Source: Filosporella fistucella
Taxonomy: Eukaryota; Ascomycota; Leotiomycetes; Helotiales
Direction: 5' to 3'
Assembly: GCA_030077755.1 (NCBI GenBank)
Contig: JAQJZZ010000010.1
Span: 5,332,001 to 5,396,000 of the forward strand
Length of the DNA stretch: 64,000 nt
Position numbers and translations under genes: made by a program. Within the stretch, counting starts at the first letter, position 1, and each line of letters begins with the position of its first letter. Under the pieces are notes generated by a model. The model did no database searches. It saw only the letters and a list, made by a program, of their open reading frames with translations, and was not told the origin of the DNA. Shown piece by piece: positions 11,253 to 33,100 of this stretch.

Positions 11253-13518
11253 TCATTGAAGACATACTAAAGTTTCTTTTATGTCTTTAAAGCACTCCAT
11301 CGCGTCGTCCGTTCCGAAATAAGTCTTATGATTATGTACAGCAACCCCAATCCGTCGATATACACGAGGTGTTTTACTGGCAAGCTTAAGTAGAAGCATA
11401 AGTTCTATTTTCTGCTCTCCATTCTCTTCTGCCAGCAGAAGAAGTGTTACGACTTCAGTACCAGTGGGGGTAAATTCCAGCGACCTACTTCCATCAAGGT
11501 TTTCTCGCCAAACATGTTCGTCAAAGTAGAACTCTACTGTGCTTCCACTCTCATGTCTGGCTGCCCATGGATCAACGCTAGATCGATAAGCCCCTCTTGG
11601 TGTGTCAAAGGGCTGAATGTAGCAGGGTGGGATTTGTGTTTGGATGGTACTATTGTACAAGCCTGGAACACACACACCAAAATCATACCGTGCGGAATCA
11701 TAACGTGCGGAATCATAACGTGCGGAATCATAACGTGCGGTCTGCATAGTGCGAAGACGGCCCTTGAGGATGAGTTTGCTCGCCTTAAGGGTCGAAGTGA
11801 GTGGCTCTCCGGACCACTGTATATCTGTGCATACTACTTCCGCGGCATGTGTTGGGCTATTGCCGATTTCGAAAAGAAGAGGGTCAAATTCGCCATTAAA
11901 AGACAGCCAGGACCAGGAAGGAATAAATTCGTTCCTCGATCTGTCTAGCAAATCCGATGGTTTCCAGGCAAGCTGTCGAATAATATCTTTCGTCCACAAC
12001 CCAAGAACAGAGCTGTCTCCGGTCAGATCTTGGAAATATTTGGTCAAACCTGCAAAAGCCGCGATTTTGTCTCGCGAGTATGTCAATTTGCGGGATGAAT
12101 AGTGCCTTGCGGTCATATACCAAGTCTGGTAAATATCCTTTGAAGTCTGAAGCCTGTGAGGAGAAATCGCGCACCACGGCATTCCTCGCATATGCCTGGG
12201 ATTTTGGGTGAGGCTAGTCAAATTGCGATCGTGTGTTCCATCTTCCGACGCGAAGCGGGTCCGACACTGCCAGAAAACCTGGTCTTCCGTAAAATGAAGT
12301 ACACGAGTAGATAGCAATGTCTCTTGGAGAGTCCAGCCACGTTGATTGAGTGGAGCATAATTGATGGGAGTTGATGTAAGCACAGAGTTTCGAATGAAGG
12401 TCGTGCAATATGAGCTAGCTCCGTCTTTTGCATCAATTTGGCCACGTGAAGGAGCCAATGAGTCGAGGAAGCAACCGCCATGACAGTCAGCGGCAGACGT
12501 ACCCGCGATAGTGAGGTATGCGTTCTTGAAGATCGAAGCCATCTTGGCCGACTCCTTTTCCCAATCAAGAGGATCATCCTGAATAATACAGAGCGCATCG
12601 ATCCATAGATATCGGACGCCGAGGTTCCTTGTAATGATCATAGCATCGTAGAGTGTTTTCGGGACGTCCTTCGTGTCAATCTGAAGGCATTGCATGGCTA
12701 AATTCGTCTGCACAGTCTTAACACTAATCGTCGTTTGACCCCAGCAATAGGATAATGCACAATAAGGCCCAAATGGAAATTTGTACTTTTCGGTGATTAC
12801 CAAATGCGGAAGTAAAGGAGAATGTCCTTCCCCAACATCTATAAGTCGACTTGGTAACATTGAACCGTCAATAACACAGCTGGGATGGAAATTCTTACAT
12901 TCTTGCATCCAATCATGTATCAAAGGTACTCGATCTTTGAACCGAATTCGACCCATAGACGACCAAATTGCTCGATGGCTAAGTGTTCCTGTCAAATGTT
13001 AATTGACTGGGCGCCGATATATCTACTACTTTTGACGTCGAGAGCACAGATATGATGGCATGTAGAGATAGGTTCGTACCTTCACTCGTTGCTAGCGCGA
13101 ACGGCTTACTTCGCCAGCAGAGATTTAGGCCTACAAGATTGACCGAAGGGGATCTCGCCATGGATGTTCCAGCTTTGACGATGAAAGGAATTCTGATGAC
13201 TTTATGAACCGGCATATCAAGAGATTGGGTGAAATGATTGGTATTTAATGTCTCCAAGTATATCCTTTGACCAACAAGATTCTCTTCAGGCCTATCGCTC
13301 TTAAAGTCCAGAAGTCGGAGGAAGAAGTCGCACATCCAACATTGTGAGGCAGAGTCAATCAACCGAAGAATATCGTCAATGTGCTCAACACGATCTTTAG
13401 ATTTAAGCTCGTCAGCGTTCCATGGCCAATTTTGCGACTCCTTATGGTCCTTAGAAGGCAAACAAGTATCATCTGTTTTCAGAGTTCCGATCCGCTGACA
13501 GAATGAACAAATAGGCAT
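11253..13518 (-). CDS. HET-domain (heterokaryon incompatibility) protein
   Basis: Two exons (13518-13080 and 12988-11253, with a 91-bp intron) encode 724 residues. The HET domain is complete: YCALSYCWG near 222-230, RYLWIDALCIIQDD near 272-285 followed by DWEKESAKMASIFKNAYLTIAGTSA, and RGWTLQE near 363-369 followed by RVLHFTEDQVFWQC. HET domains trigger programmed cell death or growth arrest in fungal non-self recognition; partners are unknown here. The N-terminal 150 residues hold CSFC and CWMCDFFLRLL pairs and match no domain I know. Near the C-terminus four ARYDS-type repeats come from a 15-bp tandem repeat (11681-11740). The gene is intact and lies inside a TIR-bounded element, so it may be mobile. 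I chose the first ATG (13518) because the frame is open from there. Confidence 0.9.
11681..11740. repeat. 15-bp tandem repeat in the HET gene, four units
   Basis: Unit AATCATAACGTGCGG is repeated four times with one C/A change in the first. Each unit encodes A-R-Y-D-S on the minus strand. Being a multiple of three, it can change copy number without a frameshift. Confidence 0.9.
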
Positions 13519-18190: not shown

Positions 18191-21100
18191 TTACTCTCCT
18201 GGCTTCACAATCTTACAGATGAGGTCGGACCCTCCAACAGAATCACCCTCCTTGATCTGAATGTTGCCTACTTTACCAGCATGTGGTGCTGAGATGACCA
18301 TTTCCTGTATCGTGTTAGATCTGTCACTCCACAACACACTTCGAGACTTACCATCTTCATAGCACTGAGAACAGCAAGTGGGTCACCCTTCTTAACATCA
18401 CCACCCTCCTTAACACGGAGTTCAACAACAACACCAGCCATTGGTGCACCAACTTGGCTGCTGTCTCCTGGATCGGCCTTAGGTCTGCTTGTGTTCTCAA
18501 CAGCAGCCTTGTTGTCATCAACTGTGACTTGACGGACCTCACCTACAATAATGTTAGTAGCTTCCAAATCAAACCGAGAACAGACTTACCATTCATTTCG
18601 TAGAACACTTCTCTTTGACCAGTGGTATCAGAAAGTGGTCCAACAGCGAGAAGCTTCAAGATCAAGACCTTGCCCTTCTCAAGCTCAACGTGGAATTCCT
18701 CTCCAATTTCAGGTCTGGACAAGAAGTATCTTGTTGGCAGAACGCTCAAATCACCATACTTCTGGATGAATTTTCTGTAATCCTCAAAAACCTTGGGGTA
18801 CATGGCATAACTGGCAACATCGCATTCGGTGACACTCCCATATTTGGTGTAGATGTCCTTCTTGATCGCTGCGAGATCAAGAGGTTTCAAGGTCAAACCA
18901 GGACGCTTATCAAGCTTAGTTCTGCCACGGAGAGCATTGGTTCTCAATGGCTCGGGGAAACCTCCGTATGGTTGACCCATAAGACCTTCGAAGAATTCAA
19001 GAACTGAACCTGGGAAATCAAGCTCGCCAGCCTTCTTTTGGACGTCATCGAAGCTAAGCTTGTTGGAGACCATGAATTGAGCCAAATCACCAACGACCTT
19101 GGAAGTTGGTGTGACCTTGACAATGTCACCAAGTAAGTCATTTGCTTGCTCGTAGGCCTTCTTGGTCTCGGCCCATTGAGCACCGAGGCCAAGTTGGGAT
19201 GCCTGGAACATCATATTGGTCAATTGACCACCTGGAATTTCGTGCTCATACACTGCAAAGAGTTAGCACAATTACTTGTCAAGAATTTGATAATAGAGAA
19301 AAACTTGCCGTCAGGGTCAGGTCCGTTCAAGCCAGCCTCAAATGGCGAGTATAGGAGTCTAAGTTGAGCCCAGTAGGTATCGATGGCTCGGACATGGCTG
19401 ACATTCAGTCCAGGGTAAAGATCGCTACCCTCCAAAGAAGCAAGAACAGCACCGACACTTGGCTGAGAAGTCATTCCGGAGAGACTGTCAGTAGCGGTAT
19501 CGACAGCATCGGCACCAGCATTTGCGCAGGCGACCATAGATGCAACACCAGTACCAGCGGAGTCGTGAGTGTGGACGTGGATTGGGAGATCTGGGTATTT
19601 CTTGCGGATGCTTCCGATCAACAATGTAGCAGCTCTTGGCTTCAAAACACCTGCCATGTCCTTGATACCAAGAACATGAATTTTCAAGGCAACAAGCTTG
19701 TCAACCATTCCCATGTAGTACTCGAGATTGTACTTCTTTTTGGGGTTCTAAGTGGATAATTAGTACATATCATGATGCTGTTTGATCAAATGGACAAAAT
19801 GAAATCTGATGACGAAGAAAAGAATGCGAAGGTCCAGATGTAAAGCATGATATAGCGATGTGATGTTGTCAAGAAAGTGCTTTTGATCGAGGTCGTCGAT
19901 GTCTTCCAAGATTCTTGCAAGGTAGCCAGAGAGATCAAAAGTACTTTGAAGCAGGGTAGAAATACTTCAGTTGGACAGCGTCCATACTGCTCCAAAATGG
20001 AAGTGTTGTGGAAGAGAGACGAGCTAAGAGCCCGACTTAGCCAGAGCTACCGCATTGGCATGCTTTGGCGTTTTGAGATGACTGTTGAGCTTCTGCTGAG
20101 TCTTTGCTGCGTAATCGCAAACACTGCAGTAGTATCTCCGAGCTGAGAGATTTCGGCTGAGGCGCTCCTTAGCAATAGGATTTTTGACAACTCTGGTGAT
20201 GCCAGCAGCATTATCTTTGTGCTTCTGAGTGCGTTTATGATTCTCGAGCTGATTGTTTGCACCGAAGGAGACATTGCAGAGGCTGCACGAGAAGCGACTT
20301 TCAGCCAATGCTTTCTCTCGCTTCCTTTTCGCAGCGCTGGCAGTGCGCACCGGACCACGTGTTACGGCATCTCTACGACTGTTCTTAAGCCTCCTCTCAG
20401 ACTCGATGGCGTCCATCTCTTCAGGAGTGAGAGTTTGATCACTCTCATGGATCTTTTCGAGCAAAGAGAGGTGTCCGCAGCAACCATCATATTCGAGAGT
20501 ATCAGCACCCCAAGGGCATAGATTTTGGTATCCGTAGCTGGTGGATCGATTCTTCAAAACCCAGAAGTATTGGGTGAAAGCAGCTTCAATCGTAAGGAGT
20601 AATGCGCGAAGCTGGACTCTCAGAGAAGCAGGAGGGAGTGGCAACCAGCAGAGAAGTCCCATGTGAACGATGACAAACCCATCATTCAGAGCATCTCTGA
20701 CATATCTGGGGTAGTTCTCTCCTCTCTTGTATTGACCAATACGTGTACTCGTACCACTCCTTTTTTCTGTTGAACAGCCAATGTATAGTTTTGGACGGCG
20801 TCCATCCTTTTCGAGTACAAGCACATATACACCCCAGATTTTGCTGAAGTTGGACGGCAGACTTTTGAAGTAAGAGATGCCAGGCGGCATCTTGGACTGT
20901 AGAACATCGAGAAGACCTGGGGCGAACTTGAATTGAGGACCTTGATTGATGATAATCTGACCAAGAGCCTCTCGAGTTGACAAGATGCTCGCGAATACCG
21001 GATTCTTCATGCAAGCAGGAGCGAGAGTGAGACATGTCCAGCAGAGCCATATGGTAAATTGGACAGCGTCCAAAAAGAATGGCACCGTGTCCATGTTTCA

Positions 21101-24100
21101 AACACAACCCTGAAGTAGATTGTTTTACAGTCGATGATGCTTGATGAAGGTCTGATGAGGTCTGCAGCCGGCAGAGTGACGGGGGTTTGATGAAGTGGAG
21201 GAGATGCTTGAAAAGAGTGAAGATTGGTAGAAGTGAGATTCAGATGAGGTTGAGCTCAGAAACCCGAATCCAGAGGAAGGAACCCTCATTGCAGATGTAG
21301 ACCCCGCATGCAGCTGCGTTGAATTGCTATGCTGAGGAAGGAGCAGCTCCCCGCAGCTGAGTGTTTGGCGAGCAGCCATGTGAGGAAAGAGCGTCTCCCG
21401 CACTCCCAAATTTGACGGCCGGAAATGCAAGATAAAATTAAATTTGATAAGGACAATTGCACTTTAGAGTCCATCCGTCGCTTGAGGTGGGAAGAATTGA
21501 GAACTAGGAATTTAACTTACGAGGAGATCTCCCGAATAGCACACTGTTCCTTCAACAACACCTCCAGCCTTGTGAACAGCGTTGATACCAACCTCAAGTT
21601 GGTCGATGTCATTCAAAGCATCAAAGACACGGAAAATATCAACACCGTGCTTCTTGGCTTGCTCCACGAAGTGATAAATTGCATTATCTACTCAACGTTA
21701 GCTACCTGGGTACGGTATAACAAAAACGTAAGCTTTTAGGAATTCACTCACCAGGAAGGGAAGAGTACGCAACACCATTGGCACCACGGAGGAGCATTTG
21801 GAATGGGATGTTGGGGATCAACTTTCTCATCTTTCGGAGTCTGTCCCAAGGATCCTCATAGAGGAAACGCATAGCGACATCGAAAGTTGCTCCACCCCAG
21901 CACTCGAGACTGTAAAGGTTGCTGTATGCGTGGCTGGTCTCCTTGGCAATGTTCAGAAGATCAACTGTTCGGACACGAGTAGCCAAGAGAGATTGATGAG
22001 CATCACGCCAAGTTGTGTCCATAAGGAGACAACCCTTGTTAGCTCTGACTGCCTTAGCGAAAGCTTCTGGGCCTTTCTCGACAATGATGTTTCTCCATCC
22101 AGTCTTGCATGGCTCAGTGGTATCAATCTTTTTGCCGGCATCATCAAAGAGCTCTGGCATAATAATGTCGCCCTTGAATTTGGGTTCACCAATTTGTCCC
22201 TTGATACTACTGCCATTGACGGCAACATCGCCGAGATAGGCAAGCTAACGAATAGTTAATAAAGGAAGCCGAGCGGATACAATTTGACTTACGAGTTTTT
22301 GTGCTCTGTTTTGAGAGCCAACCAAATCGAACAGTTCAGGGGTATCATCGATAAAGGTTGTCCAGCAAGTTCCCTCAATGAAAGTAGGGTGGGTGAGAAG
22401 AGATGCTAAGAAGGGGATGTTGGTCTTGACACCACGGATACGGAACTCGACTAATGCACGAAGCATCTTGCGTCGGACAATCTCGTAGGTAGAACCATGG
22501 CAAGTACATTTTACCAACATGGAATCGTAACTTGTATAAAGTCAGTACGGACTTGAATCTGTGAGGCACAAGTCGAGTAACTGTTGAGCATTGAAGTGGT
22601 TGTGAGTGTTCAGCAGCTGCCTCATATCCATACCCTTGCCAAATGTGTGATAAGTCGATTGACTTTGGGATGGAAAATAAAATCCAGGCAGCTGCTGAAC
22701 ATTCAAAATAATTGAATTGTCCATCCGCTACCCAGACTTCATCTCTTTGCAGAATGTACGGGAATATTTGACTTACTGAGGAGTGATGAGTGCACCTGCG
22801 AATCCATTACCACCGTCCAAACGAACTCCGTTACCACCAGCAGAACGGTACACCTCAATCTTTCCAGTATCTGGCTGGAATCCCTTGGCAGGATCCTCTG
22901 TAGTGATACGACATTGGATCGCGAATCCTCTGGTGGAGATACGATCTTGAGTAAGGCCAAGCTGAGCCAAGGTTGCACCAGCAGCAATCTGTATTTGTGC
23001 CGCAATGATATCAATGCCTGTGATCTCTTCAGTGATCGTATGCTCGACTTGAATACGAGGATTGATCTCAATGAAGTAGTATCGGTTCTTCTGATCAACC
23101 AAGAACTCCGCAGTTCCTGCATTGCGGTAGTTGACAGACTTGGCCAGTTTCACAGCGTCGTTTAAAAGGTTGTCTCTGACTTCTTGTGGTAAATCCTTGG
23201 CAGGTGCCAATTCAACCACCTTTTGATGTCTACGTTGGACAGAGCAATCACGCTCGTACAAGTGGACAATATTGCCATGGTTGTCTCCCAAGAGTTGAAC
23301 CTCAATGTGCTTGGGTTTATCGAGGAATCTCTCAACGAAAACTGTGCCGTTTCCGAAAGCAGATTTGGCCTCAGATGTGGCTCTCTGGAAAGAATCTTCC
23401 AAGTCCTCTTGCTTTCGCACAACTCTCATACCACGGCCACCACCTCCAAAGGCTGCCTTAATTATAATCGGGAATCCATATTCATCAGTAAACTTCTTGA
23501 CATCTTCGAATTTGTCCACAGCTCCCTCAGTTCCTGGGACGACTGGTACATTCGCCTTTATAGCAATTGCTCTGGCAGAGACTTTATCACCGAGGGCATC
23601 GATAACTTCGGGTGACGGACCGACGAACTAAGACTTAGATTAGTTTATGCCTAGCTTATGGTGTGCGAATAGACATACGATAAGACCAGCTTTCTCAACT
23701 TTCCGGGCGAAATCAGCGTTCTCTGAGAGGAACCCATAACCTAGAAGAATTAATTGTGTCTTCTGCGAGGTTGAATATTCTCATACCAGGGTGAATCATT
23801 TGTACGCCATGTTGCAGAGCGATCTTGATGATCTCGTCGCCCGCCAAGTAAGCCCCAACTGGTGTGTATTGACCGCGTTTTCCGATAACGTATGCTTCAT
23901 CGGCCTCTAAATTGGCAATGGAAATCAGTAAATGGTCTAAGCTTTTGAGGGAATTAAATGGCATAAAAAGTACTGACTCTGCCTGTGCATGCTGAGTCGG
24001 TCCTCATAACTGGAGCTACGTTAGCCTCTTCTCCTGCAGATGCGCCAATTCCAGCGTGTACCTGAAAACTGCGACCGTCTGTAGCGAAAGCTCATGAGCC

Positions 24101-24533
24101 TAGTTACGAGTCAGCATATGCATGATTCCCACAAGCTTGTAGGGTGGATTTCTTGGGGGTGTAACTCACTGTTCGGAAAATCTAGATATCGCTCAAGTCA
24201 GCAAGCTCAATTACCCCGCCAAGGTGGAGTACATACACGAATAGCTACACAACATCAGTATTTGACCTAACACAACAGGATTGAAGGAAGTGAACTTACG
24301 AATTTCTCCTCGATTGGCCACTGTAGTTTAACAAGATATCGTCAGCTTATACAGTCCCCGTTTAAGCTTCAATTGAGCATGAATGTGATCAGGGAGTACC
24401 CACCGAGGATCTTCTTCAATTGCATGATGCTTGAATTGGCACGGATGCGATGGATGGTTTGGGACTGTTGGGTGTCCTTCCCCTCCTCGAAAACCTCGCT
24501 GTAGGCGCCATTGGGACCATGATCTTCAGCCAT
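18191..24533 (-). CDS. PYC: Pyruvate carboxylase (biotin-dependent)
   Basis: It converts pyruvate, bicarbonate and ATP to oxaloacetate, the main anaplerotic step. I trace 16 exons from 24533 to TAA at 18191, about 1190 residues. Biotin carboxylase: [42 protein letters not shown] and [13 protein letters not shown]. Carboxyltransferase: [28 protein letters not shown] and HVHTHD metal ligands. The biotin domain has SAMKM, with the biotinyl-Lys codon at 18357-18355, directly before an intron. Oddities: a run of tiny 5' exons (21, 8, 12, 38 and 32 nt; 24320-24300, 24244-24237, 24181-24170 and on), a GC-AG intron at 19253-19308, an intron with a 20-bp inverted repeat (22531-22776), and a 1773-bp intron (19748-21520) between GDLL and NPKKKY that carries a nuclease gene. 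All other junctions keep frame. Confidence 0.95.
19971..19984. repeat. TTGGACAGCGTCCA motif, 3' copy
   Basis: TTGGAC and GTCCAA arms around AGC, here ending in T; identical over 14 bases to the copy at 21059-21072. It lies 40 bp downstream of the nuclease stop codon. Confidence 0.7.
20024..21094 (-). CDS. GIY-YIG nuclease with two U1-type zinc fingers, nested in a PYC intron
   Basis: This is a single-exon 356-residue ORF in the same orientation as its host gene. The GIY-YIG core is intact: W-GVY at 87-90, YIG at 104-106, Arg-containing helix TRIGQY near 117-122, RYVRDAL at 130-136, and the likely catalytic Glu in LLTIEAAF (E170). Two C2H2 fingers of C-x2-C-x12-H-x5-H type follow (C270, C273, H286, H292 and C323, C326, H339, H345), linked by a basic region (AAKRKREKA). 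The N-terminal 80 residues include a hydrophobic stretch. This arrangement, a nuclease head plus DNA-binding tail, is that of homing endonucleases such as I-TevI, though the fingers differ. Alternatives are a domesticated DNA-repair nuclease or a fragment of a larger transposon; no reverse transcriptase is nearby. It is homologous to the ORF at 28412-29506. Confidence 0.88.
   Translation of the reverse strand: MDTVPFFLDAVQFTIWLCWTCLTLAPACMKNPVFASILSTREALGQIIINQGPQFKFAPGLLDVLQSKMPPGISYFKSLPSNFSKIWGVYVLVLEKDGRRPKLYIGCSTEKRSGTSTRIGQYKRGENYPRYVRDALNDGFVIVHMGLLCWLPLPPASLRVQLRALLLTIEAAFTQYFWVLKNRSTSYGYQNLCPWGADTLEYDGCCGHLSLLEKIHESDQTLTPEEMDAIESERRLKNSRRDAVTRGPVRTASAAKRKREKALAESRFSCSLCNVSFGANNQLENHKRTQKHKDNAAGITRVVKNPIAKERLSRNLSARRYYCSVCDYAAKTQQKLNSHLKTPKHANAVALAKSGS
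20791..20804. repeat. TTGGACGGCGTCCA motif, internal copy
   Basis: It differs by one base from the copies at 19971 and 21059. It lies within the nuclease reading frame, in the segment between GVY and YIG. Confidence 0.6.
21059..21073. repeat. TTGGACAGCGTCCAA motif, 5' copy
   Basis: Inverted arms TTGGAC/GTCCAA around AGC. It lies within the first codons of the nuclease gene (start 21094). Confidence 0.7.
22531..22776 (-). repeat. PYC intron with a 20-bp inverted repeat
   Basis: The intron of 246 bp contains inverted arms at 22603-22622 and 22686-22705; the inner 15 bases (GTTCAGCAGCTGCCT) pair perfectly and the outer five have one mismatch, with a 63-nt loop. This would form a stable hairpin in the pre-mRNA, or it marks a small MITE-like insertion. 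The flanking exons join ALITPH to YDSMLVKC correctly. Confidence 0.75.
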
Positions 24534-25050
24534 AATTGCGTTGAGAATTGTTTGTTGCAGAGGAAAACAACAGGAACAACAGCAGAGCTCTCGATTATTA
24601 TGGATCGGGGGAGTTAGGAGCTATGCTGCTTTGGAGGAGCTACAGCCGAGCTACCGATGAAAAGCGTTGGAGGGGTTCGGCGAGCTTTGCAGCAACGGAG
24701 CAGAGGGGTTGGAGGGTAGGAGGTTCACGGAATCGATGTGTTGCAGCACCGGAATCAATTCGATGTGAGGTGTGAGAGGTAAAGATGATATGATTGAAAA
24801 GAAAGGAAAGGGTGAATTGGAAGGTTGCGAGGGAGTGCGGGGGTTTTGTTGAATTCTGCTCGGCTTTTATGATGCGCTTTGGGTGTGGAATTGTTTGGAT
24901 GTGATCCCATCTAGGTTTGGCATGGGCTGGGAAGGGGGAAGGGAGGAAGGTCTAGTCTGGCTTGTGTGTATGGAAATTATATTGCCCAGGGGAGTAAGGC
25001 ACGGTATGCATAGGTAGAGTTCACAGTACCAATTTGGTAGGGGAGCTTTA

Positions 25051-25086
<36 letters not shown>
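25051..25086. repeat. TCCTGC hexanucleotide repeat, six units
   Basis: Six perfect TCCTGC units are followed by TCC-rich variants to about 25098; about 520 bp upstream of the PYC start. Confidence 0.9.
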
Positions 25087-25090
<4 letters not shown>

Positions 25091-26292
25091 CCTCCTACTA
25101 CTCTACTACTTCACTTTCACCTTGAGTCTTGGGTCACAGGCAGTAGTAGCGTTGTTGTGTAGCGTCCTTCGTACGGCAAGGTAGGCAAGGTGAGGTAGTG
25201 TAGTGGGGTGAAATCCGTGCTTGTTTGCGGTTACTATTGCTATTGCTTGTGCGTACCATTACTCGAATGCTGTTACTGTTCCGCCGAGAGATTCACAGGA
25301 AGGGCTTCCAAGACGTTGTTTAGAATTGTCCCCGCCAATGAGGTCACAGCGATATAGAATAAAACTAATGTTGGATCGGCCCAAGATCTGAGCCCTGTCT
25401 GACTATACACGTCCCATGTCCCATACAAACTAACTGGACTCCACCGCCCTGGGTATTTGGAGGGAATCCTTACCTGTCCCTCTAGGCTCTTGTTTCTACC
25501 GTGCCGTACGTATGCAACAATACCACCAGATCTGACGGATAAAAAGATTCTGCACTGCAGGAAGTGGAAAAACATGACCCAGTCAAGTTTCAACGAGGTA
25601 GCGAGTGCAGTGGAGCCAGGGGAGAATGCAGAGTCAGGTTCAGGTTGGAGATTCAAGTTGATCTTGATATGTTCGGTTGGATTGTCATATCTAGGTTCAG
25701 TGTCAGGATCAGGTGTAGGCTGGCAGGCTGGCTCAGGTTCATGTTCCCCCACGATAAGCCCACCGAGAAGCTATGACATAAGTGAAGCTCAACACAGAAA
25801 GGCCCGAACGGCTGGTTATCAACCACCAGCAGATCACTGGCGGTAAGGTATGCGATGCCATGCTCTAAACAATCACACCCTAGCTTTTTCTAGCCGTGGA
25901 GATACGTAGTATCCATCCTCAATTTGTCCACTTGACTGCACATAGGAACTTGCACACACCTAGGTAGGGTAGGGTAGGTAAGTAACAGCAGCAACGACAA
26001 CAACAAATTTCTGCCATGGCATCACTCATTATCCCACCACCTGATACCAACAAATGGAACTGCAAATAGAACAGAAAATGCAAATCTTGCCACTGCGTTG
26101 CTTGTGAAAGTTTCTCCCTGCAGGGTCCCGTTCGGGAGAGTCACAGCCAAGAGTCACAGTTGCAGCCAAGTGCTAAGCTGTTTAACGCCAGGACCTCTGA
26201 ATGAGATATTTTTTCTATTTTTTCCTGTTACTCAGGTGGACCGCAAAGAATGGAAAAGAACAAGAACTAGACTGCCGGACTGACAGACTGGC

Positions 26293-26312
26293 CCTGTCCT
26301 GTCCTGTCCTGT
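26293..26312. repeat. CCTGT pentanucleotide repeat, four units
   Basis: Four perfect CCTGT units in intergenic DNA. Confidence 0.85.
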
Positions 26313-27179
26313 CTGAGGCGGCCTCGTCTTTTCGCCATTTTCACCCCCGACGCCGAACTCGGCTGCCCACTGCAAAGCAAGCAAGGGTGACGACAACGAG
26401 GCTGATAGACGAGGGGGGCACGAGTAGCTGGTGGAGGGGCAGAAATCGAAAACAATCAACGCATCTCGCGGCATCACCGACTCTAGCCGTGCAAAAGAAA
26501 CAATTTCTCCAGGTGGCATGGAGCCAAAATTAATTGCTGATCAGCGATGACTCTGCTGGGGAAACATGGTGGCGTCTGTCGAAAGACTTGTCACCCCATC
26601 TGTGGTCTTCAAGTCACCCCGCATTCTGATCCCGAAGATATATTTCCTTTTGCTCATGGCGCACCAAAGTCAGGCCAGCGCAGAAATCATGCACTTGGAA
26701 AAACGCCAGTGATGAGAATTTTATATACCATATAAACATGTGTGGGAGATCAATGTCACTGATTCAAGTCTGCCAAGACATGAGGCATATCCCCAAGGAG
26801 GTGGTCTTCGTCGTATCCAGTCACGGCAATTCACAACGAAATGTGTACCTTTTACCAAGTACACGGGCTGAAACATCTAGAGACTTGCACCCAAACCACA
26901 CAAGACAATCATGCAGATGTAAAAAGGCTTTTGTCAAAATACATCGAAGAATCTAGTAACCTAGCAAAGCAAACCAAGAACGCTCCTATCAGTTACAGGC
27001 GTGCCTCCATGAGTGGTGGACCAACAAGGAAACCACCCAAATGCATCTCGGCATACAAATACAGTCATGATGAGATATCCGAGACTCACTCCCATGGAAT
27101 AACCCCCGCTGTAGAAATCAAAAATGGTACATCCAGATGCCCCGTCATTATGTATATCGGTACTCATCTACAGACCATT

Positions 27180-30100
27180 TCAGAATCCCGAATACCCAGT
27201 TGGCTGAGGCGCAAATCCGTTGGTTTGAGCGAATGGAGCTGGTGATTGACGTCCAGCAGGACCAGCCGTAATCATCAGTCTGTTTCCACCAAGAATCGGA
27301 GCTTCATTTTCATCCTTCTCCTGTGATTTCTCACGGGATTTCCGCTCCTCATTATCCTTTACCAACGTCGAAATCACAGAGCTTTGTTGAGCAAGGTAAT
27401 TGATCATGAATGGCATAGTGAAATCGGTCAGGCCGTGACGCCATGAGATTTCCATGACCACGTGAACTGGGATCAAATCGTAGCAAGCGTAAAGCATACC
27501 AACATAGCATTCGCGGCTGCCAATATCGACGAACTAAATGCGATGTTAGTCCTACCCATTGTTAGGATGATTTTGCAACTTACGTATCTAAGGAGTTCTT
27601 CAACAACATCTGATTTGCTGGACATGGCTGCAGTTTCGATGGCATCTTTGAACAACTTGTCTTGCTTGGACAGCGCAATGGATTTCTCCCATCTCTTGTT
27701 CTTACGGTAGATGGCAGCGGCAATCTGGCGGAAGAAGACAAGATCATGACGCTCGAGTCGTTGAGCCAACTCGACAGGATCATAATTGTCGTAATTCTCG
27801 ACAGAGTCACGAAGAGTCTTGTAGTCCTCCTCCTCGATCAACAAATCGTTGATAGCGCTGTTGACGATCTTCTTGTTTTGTGTCTGAACATTCAGAAGGA
27901 ATGGCTTGATCAGTGGGATGTTATCGGATTTCTCGAACATCTTGACGACACGATTGACGTCAATTCGAGGGGTCAAAGCTTGAAGGAGATCAGTCAGGAG
28001 CGATGGCTGCTCTTGGAGGTAAAAATTGAGGGCACGGTAATAGATCTCCAGATTAGCGACCTTGACGATAATGTCCTTGAAGGAGTGGTGCTCCCAGGCA
28101 TCAGCAGCACGCTCCATCATGGCAAGAGCAGCATTGTCCCATTCATCATAATGACAGTAGAGGAAAACCAACTCGGGCCAGAGATGGGCATCTTCGGTGG
28201 CACGAATCATCTTAGGAATGTTTGAGCGACCCCAAAACAGTCTCAGATGCTCCATGACTCGATCAGGATGGTACTTGGAAAGAGCAATACCTAGTTCAGT
28301 GAAAATTCCCATGTGGCAACCTAGAAATGTTGATGTTAGAATGTTCGAGAGAGATGTTTTCGACAGAAGGAAAAATGGTGCAAAGTGGTGTTGAAGATTG
28401 TGTGAGACCAGCTATGAGCCAGCCTCAGCCACCCTCTTGAGGTGTCTGGTTGTCTTCAGGTGCTTCGAAAGACCTGATGGTGCTCCACAGGCAACATCGC
28501 AGGTGCTGCAGTAGAACTTCTTCGAAGCAACTACAGCAAGGTAGCGTTGCTGCTCCTCAGGCTTCTGAACAGCTCTGCGTGGTTTGGCATTGCGAACACC
28601 GGAGACTTTTGCGATGTGTGAGGCTCTGGTTTCGTGCCTGGTGAGTGCGAATCTGCTGTGGAAGGAGAGTTTGCAGGGCTCGCAAGACCATTTCTTCGAT
28701 GCTTTGACCTTCTCGTTGCTTTTCTTGAGCTGTGCATTCTTCCTTTGACGCCAGCCCTCAAAGTCTTGGGCATTGCGTCGAGCATAGTAGCGCTGACGAA
28801 TCTCCTTGTCTTGAATTGCGCGTCTAACCTCCATTTGTGCCTGTTTAGCAGCAATCTGTTCAGCAGTGAGACCATCCTCCTCGCCACAGACCATCTCTGC
28901 AATGGCAGCATGAGAGCAGCAGCCATCATATTGGACGCTGTCTAAATCCCATGATAGCAATGAAGGCATAGCATAGGTTTTCGTGCGGGACACCATAGAC
29001 CAGAACGCTAGTGAGAAGGTGGTTTCGAGAAGTATCATAAGGCAGCGCATAGAGAACCTTGATAAAGGAGGCGGGCGAGGTGTCCAGCACAGAATACCCT
29101 TATGTGTGATCGTATAGCCTCCAAGGACAGCATTTCGGACATAGCGAGGCATGCGGTGGACGTGATTGTAATCTCTCATCCTAGCATACATTGCCTGAAC
29201 CGATGATCCGGTTCCGGACCCGATGTAAACTCGTGGACGACATCCAGATTTCTCGAGAACGATGATGTAGACGCCCCAGAGACCATAACATTGCGTAGGT
29301 AAGGTCTTAAACCATTTGATTGTTGGAGGTATTGGAGCAAGGAATATGTCCAGAAGACCATCAGCGAAGGTGATATCCGAGAGATGCTTCTCCATGATTA
29401 CCATAGTGGTGAAGATCATGTCATGCACAGGATTTTTGAGGTCATTTTTGCATAGGGTCAAGAGACCCCAGCAGAGGAAGAGCATGAACTCGTGGATGGT
29501 GGCCATGATGAATGGACAGTGTCCAATCTGCTGTCGTACGAATCGACCACGTCGATTCGTGTATGATGCAGAGGTTCGCTACAGTAAGCATGCGTATCGA
29601 TGATTGCAGCTGCTGTACCGTGAAGAGATAGGTTGCTTGCTTGCACCAGTGTTGAAACCGAAGTAGAATCGTGGACAGCACGCGCACCTCTTGAGTGTGA
29701 TGAGGTATACACTACAAGAATTGATGCTTTGCGTATCAAAGTTCTTAATGCAGTGGGTTGCTGATGGTAGCGTAAAGAGTGTGGCCTCCAGCAGGTTGGC
29801 AGCACGGAGGTGTTTGGGAGATGTTGAGAGAAGGTCGAAAATTTCTCGAGATCGCGTCTTAAGGAACTACCTTGAGAGCAGGAAGGAGCCATTGTGCTCA
29901 TTGTGTGATGGTGAGGTGAAATGGGAAGGAGCAGCATGTCTGGGAGGGGGGGAAGGGGGAGGGGGAAGGGCCAAGACTAAGAAAGGAAGGAACTCTGGAT
30001 ACAAGTCAGTATGAGGCTCTGCCGAAGCCGAACATGTCCCGAATCATCGGAAACTATTCGCATCTTGTTCAGGATAAGTACTTACCACGTTCAAGACCAA

Positions 30101-33100
30101 GTCCTTTCTCAAGAACATCAATGAGTTCATCAAAATATCCATCTCGTTCATACTGTTTGACCAACTCTTGCAACTCCTCAGCATCGACAATCAAATTGAG
30201 ACCACAAATCTGGGCAAGTCGGAATTCCTTCTTTTGAACACAAGCAGCATTAACTTGCTTCCAGACCTTGATGTTGTTTGCCTTGCGAGCACACTCAACA
30301 GCTGCTTGATAATCTTCAAGGTACACAAGTGTTGTGGACAATTTCGACCAATTCGAGATGCTGGTGAAGAAGATCTTGGCAGCTTGATGATAACCTTCAG
30401 CAGCACACTTATCGCCGGACTCTTCTATGTCTGCAACGTTAGTTCCCCTCAGGAAGTCTTCCAATTCGCTCAATTGATCGGTGCGCGCATAAGCAAAAGC
30501 CAAAGCGGTATCGATAGGTGGCTCCCTAAGGGTCTTTCTTGACATTCGCAAGTACTTGATGAGATCCTCATCCTTGCCGGCATGTGTAGCGATTTCGATA
30601 ACTTCGTTGTAGTTGCTGGGGTCGTTTGCTCTTAGATAAGAAGCAATACCATCGCTGACTCGGAGACCATCCAGTTGAGCCTTGGCAACTCTGCTCCACA
30701 CTTCTGGAAGCTCCACGCGTTCTGCGAAGTCTTGAGCTCTATCTATGCTAACAATATGTTCCACCAGTACATTGACAGCATTGAGGTGATCATTGATCTT
30801 TTTGTAGACCTCAAAGGCTTCCTCGAAGAGACCAACCTCAATACAAATATTGGCAATGTCAGGAGCATTGTATGCATCGAGTTGCGAAATGTAGCCTTGA
30901 ACTCGGCCCTTGTCGGATTTCGTAGCAGTCAAGATCAATAAATTCTGAAGATTCTCATTGTCGGAGAACTGCGGGCAATCAGTCAATATTGAAGTGTCCT
31001 AAGAGAAAATGAGAAGAGGAGTCCAGTTACTTACAGGCGATGGCTCTAAGACGATCTTCTCAAGAAGTTCAATAAGTTCAGCAGGCAAATCAGCTTGCAG
31101 GAAAGCTGCAACAGCAACTGATACCTTGTCAGGTTCAGTAGACTCAGGAACTGCGGTCGAAATGACTTGGTCGATGACAGAACGGCGGTGCATATTGTTA
31201 GGGCTGAGTACAAATGCCCACAATTCTCGGTCAGCTCTCTCAAGGAGATATCGAGCTTGGGCCTTGAACATGGAGTTCGAAGTGGTGATTTCCACTAACT
31301 CGAGATCATTTTGTCCTTTGCGGTATGCGATGTAGGCCCTAATCAAGAGTTAGACTACTGTCGTTTTTAATTGAAACAAGGGACAATCAAAGATATGTTG
31401 AAATGGGTCGGAGTTTGGGACATTTGTTTCGAGACAATAGTACTCACAAATTTGGGTCTCTCTTCTCGCAATATTTGCCCACGGTGAGAGTATCATATTG
31501 ATCGTTCTCCTTTAGGAATTTTTCTGGATTGTTGTTAGAATCGATGTAGATCTTTGCAAGTGCGTTGTAGACAGCTTGCTGTTGGTTGCCAGCAGCCAGG
31601 GTTGCCTCGAGGAATGGCAGGAGAAGCTTCAATCGGTTTCGTGACTCAACCTCAGAAACGAGCTCGTCAATTGGGACAGACGCTGGGTTTACTGTCTGCA
31701 GAAGATTCTTGATGATCGATTCATCGCAGTCCACATCAAGGAGGCCACCGATAACAGCAGGAGTTCTTGCTGGATTGACACGTTGGACGTAAACCTCAAT
31801 CGATTTGAACTGTTGGTTTTGATAAAGGTAAAGAACAAGATCGTGGATGAAGTTGAAACGATCGCAGACAATGATGAGGGGGAGCTGCTCGGTCAACTTG
31901 GCTTCCTTCAAGAAGTTTTTCGTCTTTTCTGGGTTGTAGAAATCTTTTCCGGGCGTGATTAGCATATGACATTGGCATTGAAAATGTGTGACTTACTGTT
32001 GTCTCGGCAAATGCGCTCAACTTCATTGAACTGACCCATCTTGGTGGCAGCTTCAATGTATTTGAAAACGACATCTTGCTCTTCGCTGACGTTGACAATG
32101 CTTCCGAGGTAGTAGAAGAGACCTTCTGATGTCTTGTATTTCTCGAAGAGGTCAATCAGTCTGGTCGGACCGAGGAGATCTGAATATTTGGTAGCAATTT
32201 GTACAACAGCAGCCAGGTTTTGACGTATGTTGGTCTTCAGCATTGCATCCAAGCAGTCCAAAGATTGTTCTAAGGATAAGCGACCGAAGAAGTTGGTCAG
32301 CCATTCCTGACTGAAATTAGGAGTTGCCACAATGTTGACAATCACACGCTTCACAGACTCTGGATCATCGTAGTGCTCCAGGGCTCGCTGCGAAAGACCT
32401 GCTTGCTCACACAATTGTGCAACACGTGCTCGATCGTAATGAGAGAACATATCATTTCCAAGGATGGCGTCAGCGACCTGAGGAGCATTGATGAGATTCA
32501 TCTCAAGCAAGCGAGTTTGGAGATGGCCTTGCTCTGGTCGGTTGTCCTTCAGTGCATCCAACAAGAAGGCGGTTGCAGGTTGGACCATTCCTTGGGATTG
32601 GAAAACATCGACAACACGCTCAATATCAACCAGAGAGCCACCCTCATGATTGGCAAGTTGAGTAGCGAATTCAGCTCCCTTCTCAGGGTTGATACGAACG
32701 ACTGAATATGATTAGCATTTACTCCTGAAATTAAGGGGGGAATGGGCTGCTTACTGTTTTGCAACAGCACAACATAATCTGGCTGGTATCCCACTTGAGC
32801 TGAGTAAGGCAAGATCTTTTCGAACTGGCCAGTCTCCGCAAAAGCAGCAACAACTTTGGGTGCAACATTTGCCCTCAGGTATATAGAAAGGGCAAGGTTG
32901 AGATCATGTGGACGGACCACATCACCCAACTCCTCAGAACAATCAAGTTTGTTCTCCTTCATCCATTTCTCCAGCAGGTGCTTACGATTCTGAGCGAGAA
33001 CTGGTCGCACAAGCTCCAGAGTCTCGTGCTTATTCAAGGTTCCCTTGTCAAGGAGCATGCCAAAGTATTGAAGAATAACGGAGAGCTGTCCAGGTGCGGC

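Follow-up and report, generated by a model that had tools for sequence, protein, structure and literature searches.

Genes for GIY-YIG/C2H2 nucleases in long introns of fungal housekeeping genes: candidate spliceosomal homing introns

Nuclease genes in long introns of PC and CHC

Here, we describe a window of 64,000 nucleotides (nt) from Filosporella fistucella (G000:C9:5332001-5396000, part of a 45.77-Mb genome in 19 contigs) in which the genes for pyruvate carboxylase (PC) and clathrin heavy chain (CHC), both on the minus strand, each contain one long intron of ~1.77 kb. The genes present fit a filamentous ascomycete. Each of these introns encloses one long open reading frame (ORF), in sense relative to its host gene, for a protein with a GIY-YIG nuclease domain and two C2H2 fingers (Table 1). 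The introns delimit exactly the span 19748-30085 that a first-pass annotation had singled out, its first position falling on the 3' boundary of the PC intron and its last on the 5' boundary of the CHC intron.

The identity of the host genes rests on their joined exons: those of CHC align without a gap across the junction to solved CHC chains, and those of PC align to the best solved PC chain with one single-residue gap, 3 residues past the junction. By comparison, the next CHC intron has 50 nt and a neighbouring PC intron roughly 60 nt. The splice signals of both long introns are canonical, with 5' GTAAGT, TACTAAT or TCTAAC near the 3' end and a terminal AG. For the CHC intron, the 5' splice site could lie at either of two positions 3 bases apart: GAACGTG/GTAAGT adds one residue (LERGCHM) and GAAC/GTGGTAAG gives the gapless LERCHM. 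Neither intron matched a group I or group II ribozyme core in Rfam at E ≤ 1, and a scan of positions 19000-31000 at this threshold returned only two weak snoRNA-like matches, both under their gathering scores.

Table 1. Features of the PC and CHC loci, in window positions.
Feature	Positions	Strand	Remarks
PC exon frame downstream of long intron	19223..19747	-	HMGL-like domain; aligned to solved structures
PC long intron	19748..21520	-	1773 nt, phase 0, GTAAGT...TACTAAT...AG
Palindrome 2, AAAGTACTTT	19938..19947	.	77 nt past ORF 1 stop; GCN1 counterpart AAAAGTACTTTT 71 nt past its stop
Palindrome 1, TGGACAGCGTCCA	19972..19984	.	~40 nt past ORF 1 stop
ORF 1	20024..21094	-	356 aa, in PC intron; GIY-YIG nuclease domain, long linker, two C2H2 fingers
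Palindrome 1, TGGACGGCGTCCA	20792..20804	.	inside ORF 1
Palindrome 1, TGGACAGCGTCCA	21060..21072	.	first codons of ORF 1
PC exon upstream of long intron	21521..21688	-	ends ...VCYSGDLL; own 5' end approximate
Ordinary CHC intron	27534-27583	-	50 nt; lower bound of downstream CHC exon
CHC exon downstream of long intron	27584..28320	-	HMGIFTEL after junction codon
CHC long intron	28321..30085	-	1765 nt, phase 1, GTAAGT...TCTAAC...AG; alternative 5' site 3 bases upstream possible
ORF 2	28412..29506	-	364 aa, in CHC intron; GIY-YIG domain within residues 62-205, helix 215-270, two C2H2 fingers
Palindrome 1, one-mismatch copy	28932..28944	.	inside ORF 2
Palindrome 1, TGGACAGTGTCCA	29513..29525	.	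just upstream of ORF 2 ATG
Decayed N-terminal nuclease remnant	29597..29842	-	CHC intron, upstream of ORF 2; most like CHC clade; E 1.5e-5 in genome search
CHC exon frame upstream of long intron	30086..30998	-	ends ...GLGLER

The longest sense frames in the two introns (357 and 388 codons) exceed the maxima of 241 and 237 codons reached in 500 mononucleotide shuffles per intron. Read into the PC intron, the host frame is stopped immediately; in the CHC intron and in that of a third host gene, GCN1, described below, a stop comes after at most a few codons. Therefore, the ORFs are not fused to the host exons. They start 426-693 nt from the 5' ends of their introns, and the composition of the intact frames is host-like.

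ORF 1 and ORF 2 are 33% identical (51% positives) over 371 columns (E 1e-75), and the segments that the first-pass annotation had listed as common to both (KNPV, GVY, YIG, PRYVR-A, LCW, YDGCC-H and two C2H2 fingers) are visible in their alignment. As modelled, the encoded protein has a GIY-YIG fold that is closest to I-TevI among the solved chains compared. In an alignment of 65 family members, Y80, Y94, G96 and R109 are conserved at ≥90% and E161 is invariant. We take the roles of these Tyr, Tyr-x-Gly, Arg and Glu residues to be those of the GIY-YIG motif, for which no Asn equivalent was identified in the 65 rows. The Pfam GIY-YIG profile was absent among the families matched at E ≤ 1 by ORF 1 (18) and ORF 2 (9), and among the best 25 of 66 families matched by the 65 members (E ≤ 0.1).

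Further copies, relatives and the CHC site

When the genome was searched with the two ORFs, with the third copy and with one distantly related protein, at least three intact copies emerged, in PC, CHC and GCN1; this is a lower bound, because only the best candidates were scored. The third copy (385 aa, L012:4676-5833) lies in sense inside a 2232-nt intron (L012:3983-6214). Its host gene encodes HEAT repeats and is matched by fungal GCN1 profiles. The exons of this gene, once joined, align to a chain of 2898 residues, and the junction is free of gaps. The depositors labelled that chain ribosomal protein L19; we name the host GCN1 because of the Pfam match. All three introns are of the GT-AG type with ACTAAT or TCTAAC branch-like sites. 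The third copy bears out the proposed recurrence in sense introns of conserved genes. A majority of members outside introns or in random orientation, which had been named as counting against this proposal, is not what was seen in this genome, as 3/3 intact copies found are intronic and 3/3 are in sense. The insertion sites had been described as dissimilar, with which the junction sequences agree by eye.

Several other matches were not counted as copies. The match on C16 (L018) covers C2H2 fingers only. That on C13 (L033) spans ~40 residues (E 0.004; E 0.27 by family profile) with four stops, and those on C11, C17, C3 and C12 are weaker still. A long frame 7-9 kb before the window start (L039:5968-7749) contains a GIY-YIG-like stretch (YLLMFRS...YIGKT); it has no family-profile match and is not a member.

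Two database searches returned 28 and 45 proteins, 72 of them distinct. After omission of ten fragments, the alignment held the 65 rows mentioned above, including the three copies of this genome, and the tree 64, one further row of <300 aa being left out. ORF 2 falls in a clade of 15 members (support 100/99), and ORF 1 in a clade of 22 (99/97). The GCN1 copy is joined by two other members, at a support of 87/89 that is under the starred level. These three separate clades with relatives in other genomes uphold the view of the first-pass annotation that ORF 1 and ORF 2 are old paralogs rather than products of a local duplication. Named relatives come from Fusarium lateritium (Sordariomycetes), Neophaeococcomyces mojaviensis (Eurotiomycetes), Coleophoma (Leotiomycetes) and Lipomyces (Saccharomycotina). 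In the lists of 28 and 45 relatives, no displayed name mentions a nuclease, and most rows are without an informative name. The N. mojaviensis protein P0063 carries the source name carbamoyl-phosphate synthase cpa2, which would fit a location in an intron of cpa2, perhaps a further host gene. P0013 of the CHC clade and P0021 of the PC clade share a longest-contig figure of 30409 bases, a hint, not proof, of another species with both nucleases in neighbouring PC and CHC genes. The family nuclease P0046 and the CHC fragment P0179 likewise share a contig figure (159193), and P0179 ends ~53 residues beyond the position of the CHC site in the window; it reads through that site, so that this pair does not show a nuclease there. 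No related DNA was confirmed among 28 pattern matches in viral_contigs and 12 in genome_contigs.

Two observations bear on whether the CHC intron was gained. First, with CHC joined across the junction as the query, 669 proteins were found at E ≤ 1e-30, and in the best 120 of these the site is uninterrupted (120/120), the nearest being 94% and the six nearest 89-94% identical. Eighteen of the 120, NCBI or UniRef entries, may represent spliced models. Of those whose ends were examined, the seven nearest continue past the end of the next exon into sequence that looks intronic, one of them for only a few residues, and are therefore unspliced frames. The comparison is biased, because sequences interrupted at the site would score lower. 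Second, the CHC of the window differs from all 120 at three positions (D-19, K-7 and C0), each of which lies at most 20 residues from the junction (hypergeometric P 0.0009, post hoc); C0 as a rare residue presupposes the gapless splice model. For residues seen in ≤5/120 sequences, 4/11 are near the junction (P 0.017, post hoc). The same check on five near relatives found 4/5 without rare residues within 25 of the site, P0076 having three. In fungal mitochondria, exons next to mobile introns are known to have an increased diversity (PMC5378118). The CHC intron also contains a decayed nuclease remnant of which 95 codons are stop-free and the remainder of the protein is lost. The remnant matches P0004 (39% over 67 columns, E 7.1e-12) and P0015, a fragment outside the tree (40% over 77 columns, E 1.8e-12), and ORF 2 at 34% over 85 columns. 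As it is closest to CHC-like members and not to ORF 2 itself, a recent duplication of ORF 2 does not account for it. Outside their ORFs, the PC and GCN1 introns yielded no remnants (best E 0.71 and 0.27). The nearest sampled relatives among the best 120 of 669 lack the CHC intron, which points to an apparent gain at this site. Of the site-specific gain and loss that the first-pass annotation had proposed, the missing intron and the decayed copy beside a live one support a part; site-specific clades and horizontal transfer are conjectural.

These data also bear on an alternative in which the nuclease gene entered pre-existing ordinary introns, so that only the gene, and not the intron, is or was mobile. 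The position of the ORFs well inside their introns would fit such a history, as would the dissimilarity of the three introns in sequence apart from splice signals and short palindromes. However, the CHC site, unbroken in the 120 best matches, gives no appearance of an old intron, and the rare CHC residues cluster at the exon edge; we consider this alternative unlikely.

Palindromes in and around the nuclease genes

The nuclease introns share short palindromes. Palindrome 1, TGGAC-N3-GTCCA, occurs in the three introns (5770 nt) 4, 7 and 16 times at 0, ≤1 and ≤2 mismatches, versus 0, 2 and 19 times in the remainder of the window once 19001-31000 is set aside (52,000 nt). Within the window only, the PC and CHC introns (3538 nt) hold 4, 6 and 11 matches versus 0, 2 and 23 in the other 60 kb. 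Across the whole window, 11 matches at ≤2 mismatches compare with 3.69 expected, a number reached by 1/100 shuffles. Taken by itself, the GCN1 stretch shows no significant excess (2 versus 0.52 expected; 21/200 shuffles). Exact TGGACRSYGTCCA is found at 8 places in the 45.77 Mb, 4/8 of them in the PC and CHC introns; the reversed control has 2 per strand. The other four (C1, C6, C10 and C17) lie in open frames unrelated by family profile and were taken as chance; a weak finger-like match (E 0.48) lies ~550 bases from the place on C1.

At the GCN1 locus, the rare palindrome TGGACnnnGTCCA is represented at L012:4357 and 5870 by a one-mismatch copy and a symmetric variant, TCGAC-AGC-GTCGA, in which the change is on both sides and symmetry is kept. 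PC and GCN1 also have a common layout after the nuclease stop, with palindrome 1 at +40 and +37, respectively, followed by AAAAGTACTTTT at +77 and +71, the PC version being one base shorter per side. Palindrome 2 has 14 places in the genome, 2/14 in the GCN1 intron. An intergenic region that adjoins a glycosidase-like gene contains four copies of AAAAGTACTTTT within a span of 650 bp (G000:C9:1106609-1107252; L038:4610-5253), and because of this cluster palindrome 2 may serve host regulation instead of belonging to an element. Our guess that the palindromes are sites for self-regulation by the nuclease is speculative.

Elsewhere in the window, ~7 kb from the PC intron, lies a gene for a HET (heterokaryon incompatibility) domain (11253-12998; Pfam HET E 1.2e-32).

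Homing spliceosomal introns and alternatives

We suggest that each of the long introns is probably a homing spliceosomal intron. What we show is the anatomy of the introns, the modelled fold, the third copy, the CHC intron missing in near relatives and the remnant. That the introns are spliced, that the nuclease cuts, that the introns home, that each keeps to its site in other species and that co-conversion takes place we infer. In our model, the nuclease would be made from its own transcript and then enter the nucleus, where helix and fingers would recognise the intron-free allele of the host gene and the nuclease would cut it. Repair of the break from the intron-bearing allele, in mating or in a heterokaryon, would copy the intron together with its nuclease. 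The spliceosome would excise the intron from the host mRNA, and because of this removal the host would tolerate it. Every clade would be specialised for one site in one conserved gene. After fixation, copies would decay and leave the site open to recolonisation, which would explain the remnant beside ORF 2. More speculatively, the palindromes may let the nuclease control its own gene.

A different function is conceivable in which the nuclease genes are nested host genes that encode domesticated, nuclease-like DNA-binding regulators and have lost mobility. The intact frames with host-like composition, the C2H2 fingers and the rare palindromes in and around the genes, which suggest regulation, would suit such a function, as would the possible joint persistence of CHC-like and PC-like members elsewhere (P0013/P0021). 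We regard domestication as quite improbable in light of the catalytic-type residues kept across 65 rows, the three different host genes, the decayed copy, the apparent gain at CHC and the patchy occurrence of named relatives from Lipomyces to Fusarium. GIY-YIG nucleases are found in Penelope-like elements, a point in favour of a transposon or introner bearing such a nuclease (Penelope-like, DNA transposon or similar), but this is very improbable, as no other intron frame exceeds 185 codons (shorter frames were not searched against profiles), the intron ends have no target-site duplication or terminal repeat by eye (no repeat scan was run) and the at least three intact copies found are far diverged.

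Spliceosomal homing introns have a precedent in the shintrons of mirusviruses (PMC12768974, Nat Microbiol 2025). That paper states that an association of such endonucleases with spliceosomal introns was unobserved prior to its viral cases. The "new class" of the first-pass annotation is therefore not fully supported. As described there, shintrons resemble the introns reported here in being GT-AG spliceosomal introns without a group I/II signature and in encoding homing-type nucleases, GIY-YIG included. They also have apparent target-gene specificity; here, three copies fall in three clades and three host genes. By contrast, shintrons reside in large DNA viruses, mostly in virion genes, while the introns described here reside in housekeeping genes of a fungal nuclear genome and encode a GIY-YIG domain with two C2H2 fingers, a comparison made by description. 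We therefore regard the PC, CHC and GCN1 introns as a likely cellular, fungal, housekeeping-gene form of spliceosomal homing intron with a GIY-YIG/C2H2 nuclease.

With I-TevI and other GIY-YIG homing endonucleases of group I introns, including those of fungal mitochondria, the proteins share the nuclease fold, the location in introns and conserved hosts. Unlike these, they are encoded in nuclear introns with spliceosomal signals and, for PC and CHC, no ribozyme family match, their ORFs are unfused to the upstream exon, and C2H2 fingers behind a long helix form the presumed DNA-binding part. Nuclear homing introns also include group I introns of ribosomal DNA (rDNA) that carry nucleases; these differ in their rDNA location, self-splicing and other nuclease folds. 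Another nuclear gene for a GIY-YIG homing endonuclease in a fungus is the telomeric one of Ustilago maydis (PMC7593156); that gene is a recent, inactivated mitochondrial import in a helicase gene near the telomere, whereas those described here are intact, host-like in composition and intronic. In the open-access literature, no other nuclease-bearing spliceosomal introns in cellular nuclear protein genes were among the matches listed.

More tentatively, and in a form that may well not hold as a whole, we propose that the Ascomycota harbour a nuclear lineage of mobile spliceosomal introns with clade-specific homing into one housekeeping-gene site (PC, CHC, GCN1 and perhaps CPA2). Each clade would create a new intron at its site, be lost there by decay and give way to a successor, pass from one species to another and regulate its own gene through a private palindrome.

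Altogether, these findings address the origin of new spliceosomal introns and the question of whether homing endonucleases can live in them, and suggest that an ordinary intron of a nuclear gene can be a mobile element that copies itself. If this is true, nuclear intron gain would have a drive mechanism, and a natural drive-like element would reside in housekeeping genes, overlooked by annotation. A cellular, fungal counterpart of the viral introns would make intron gain by homing directly testable.

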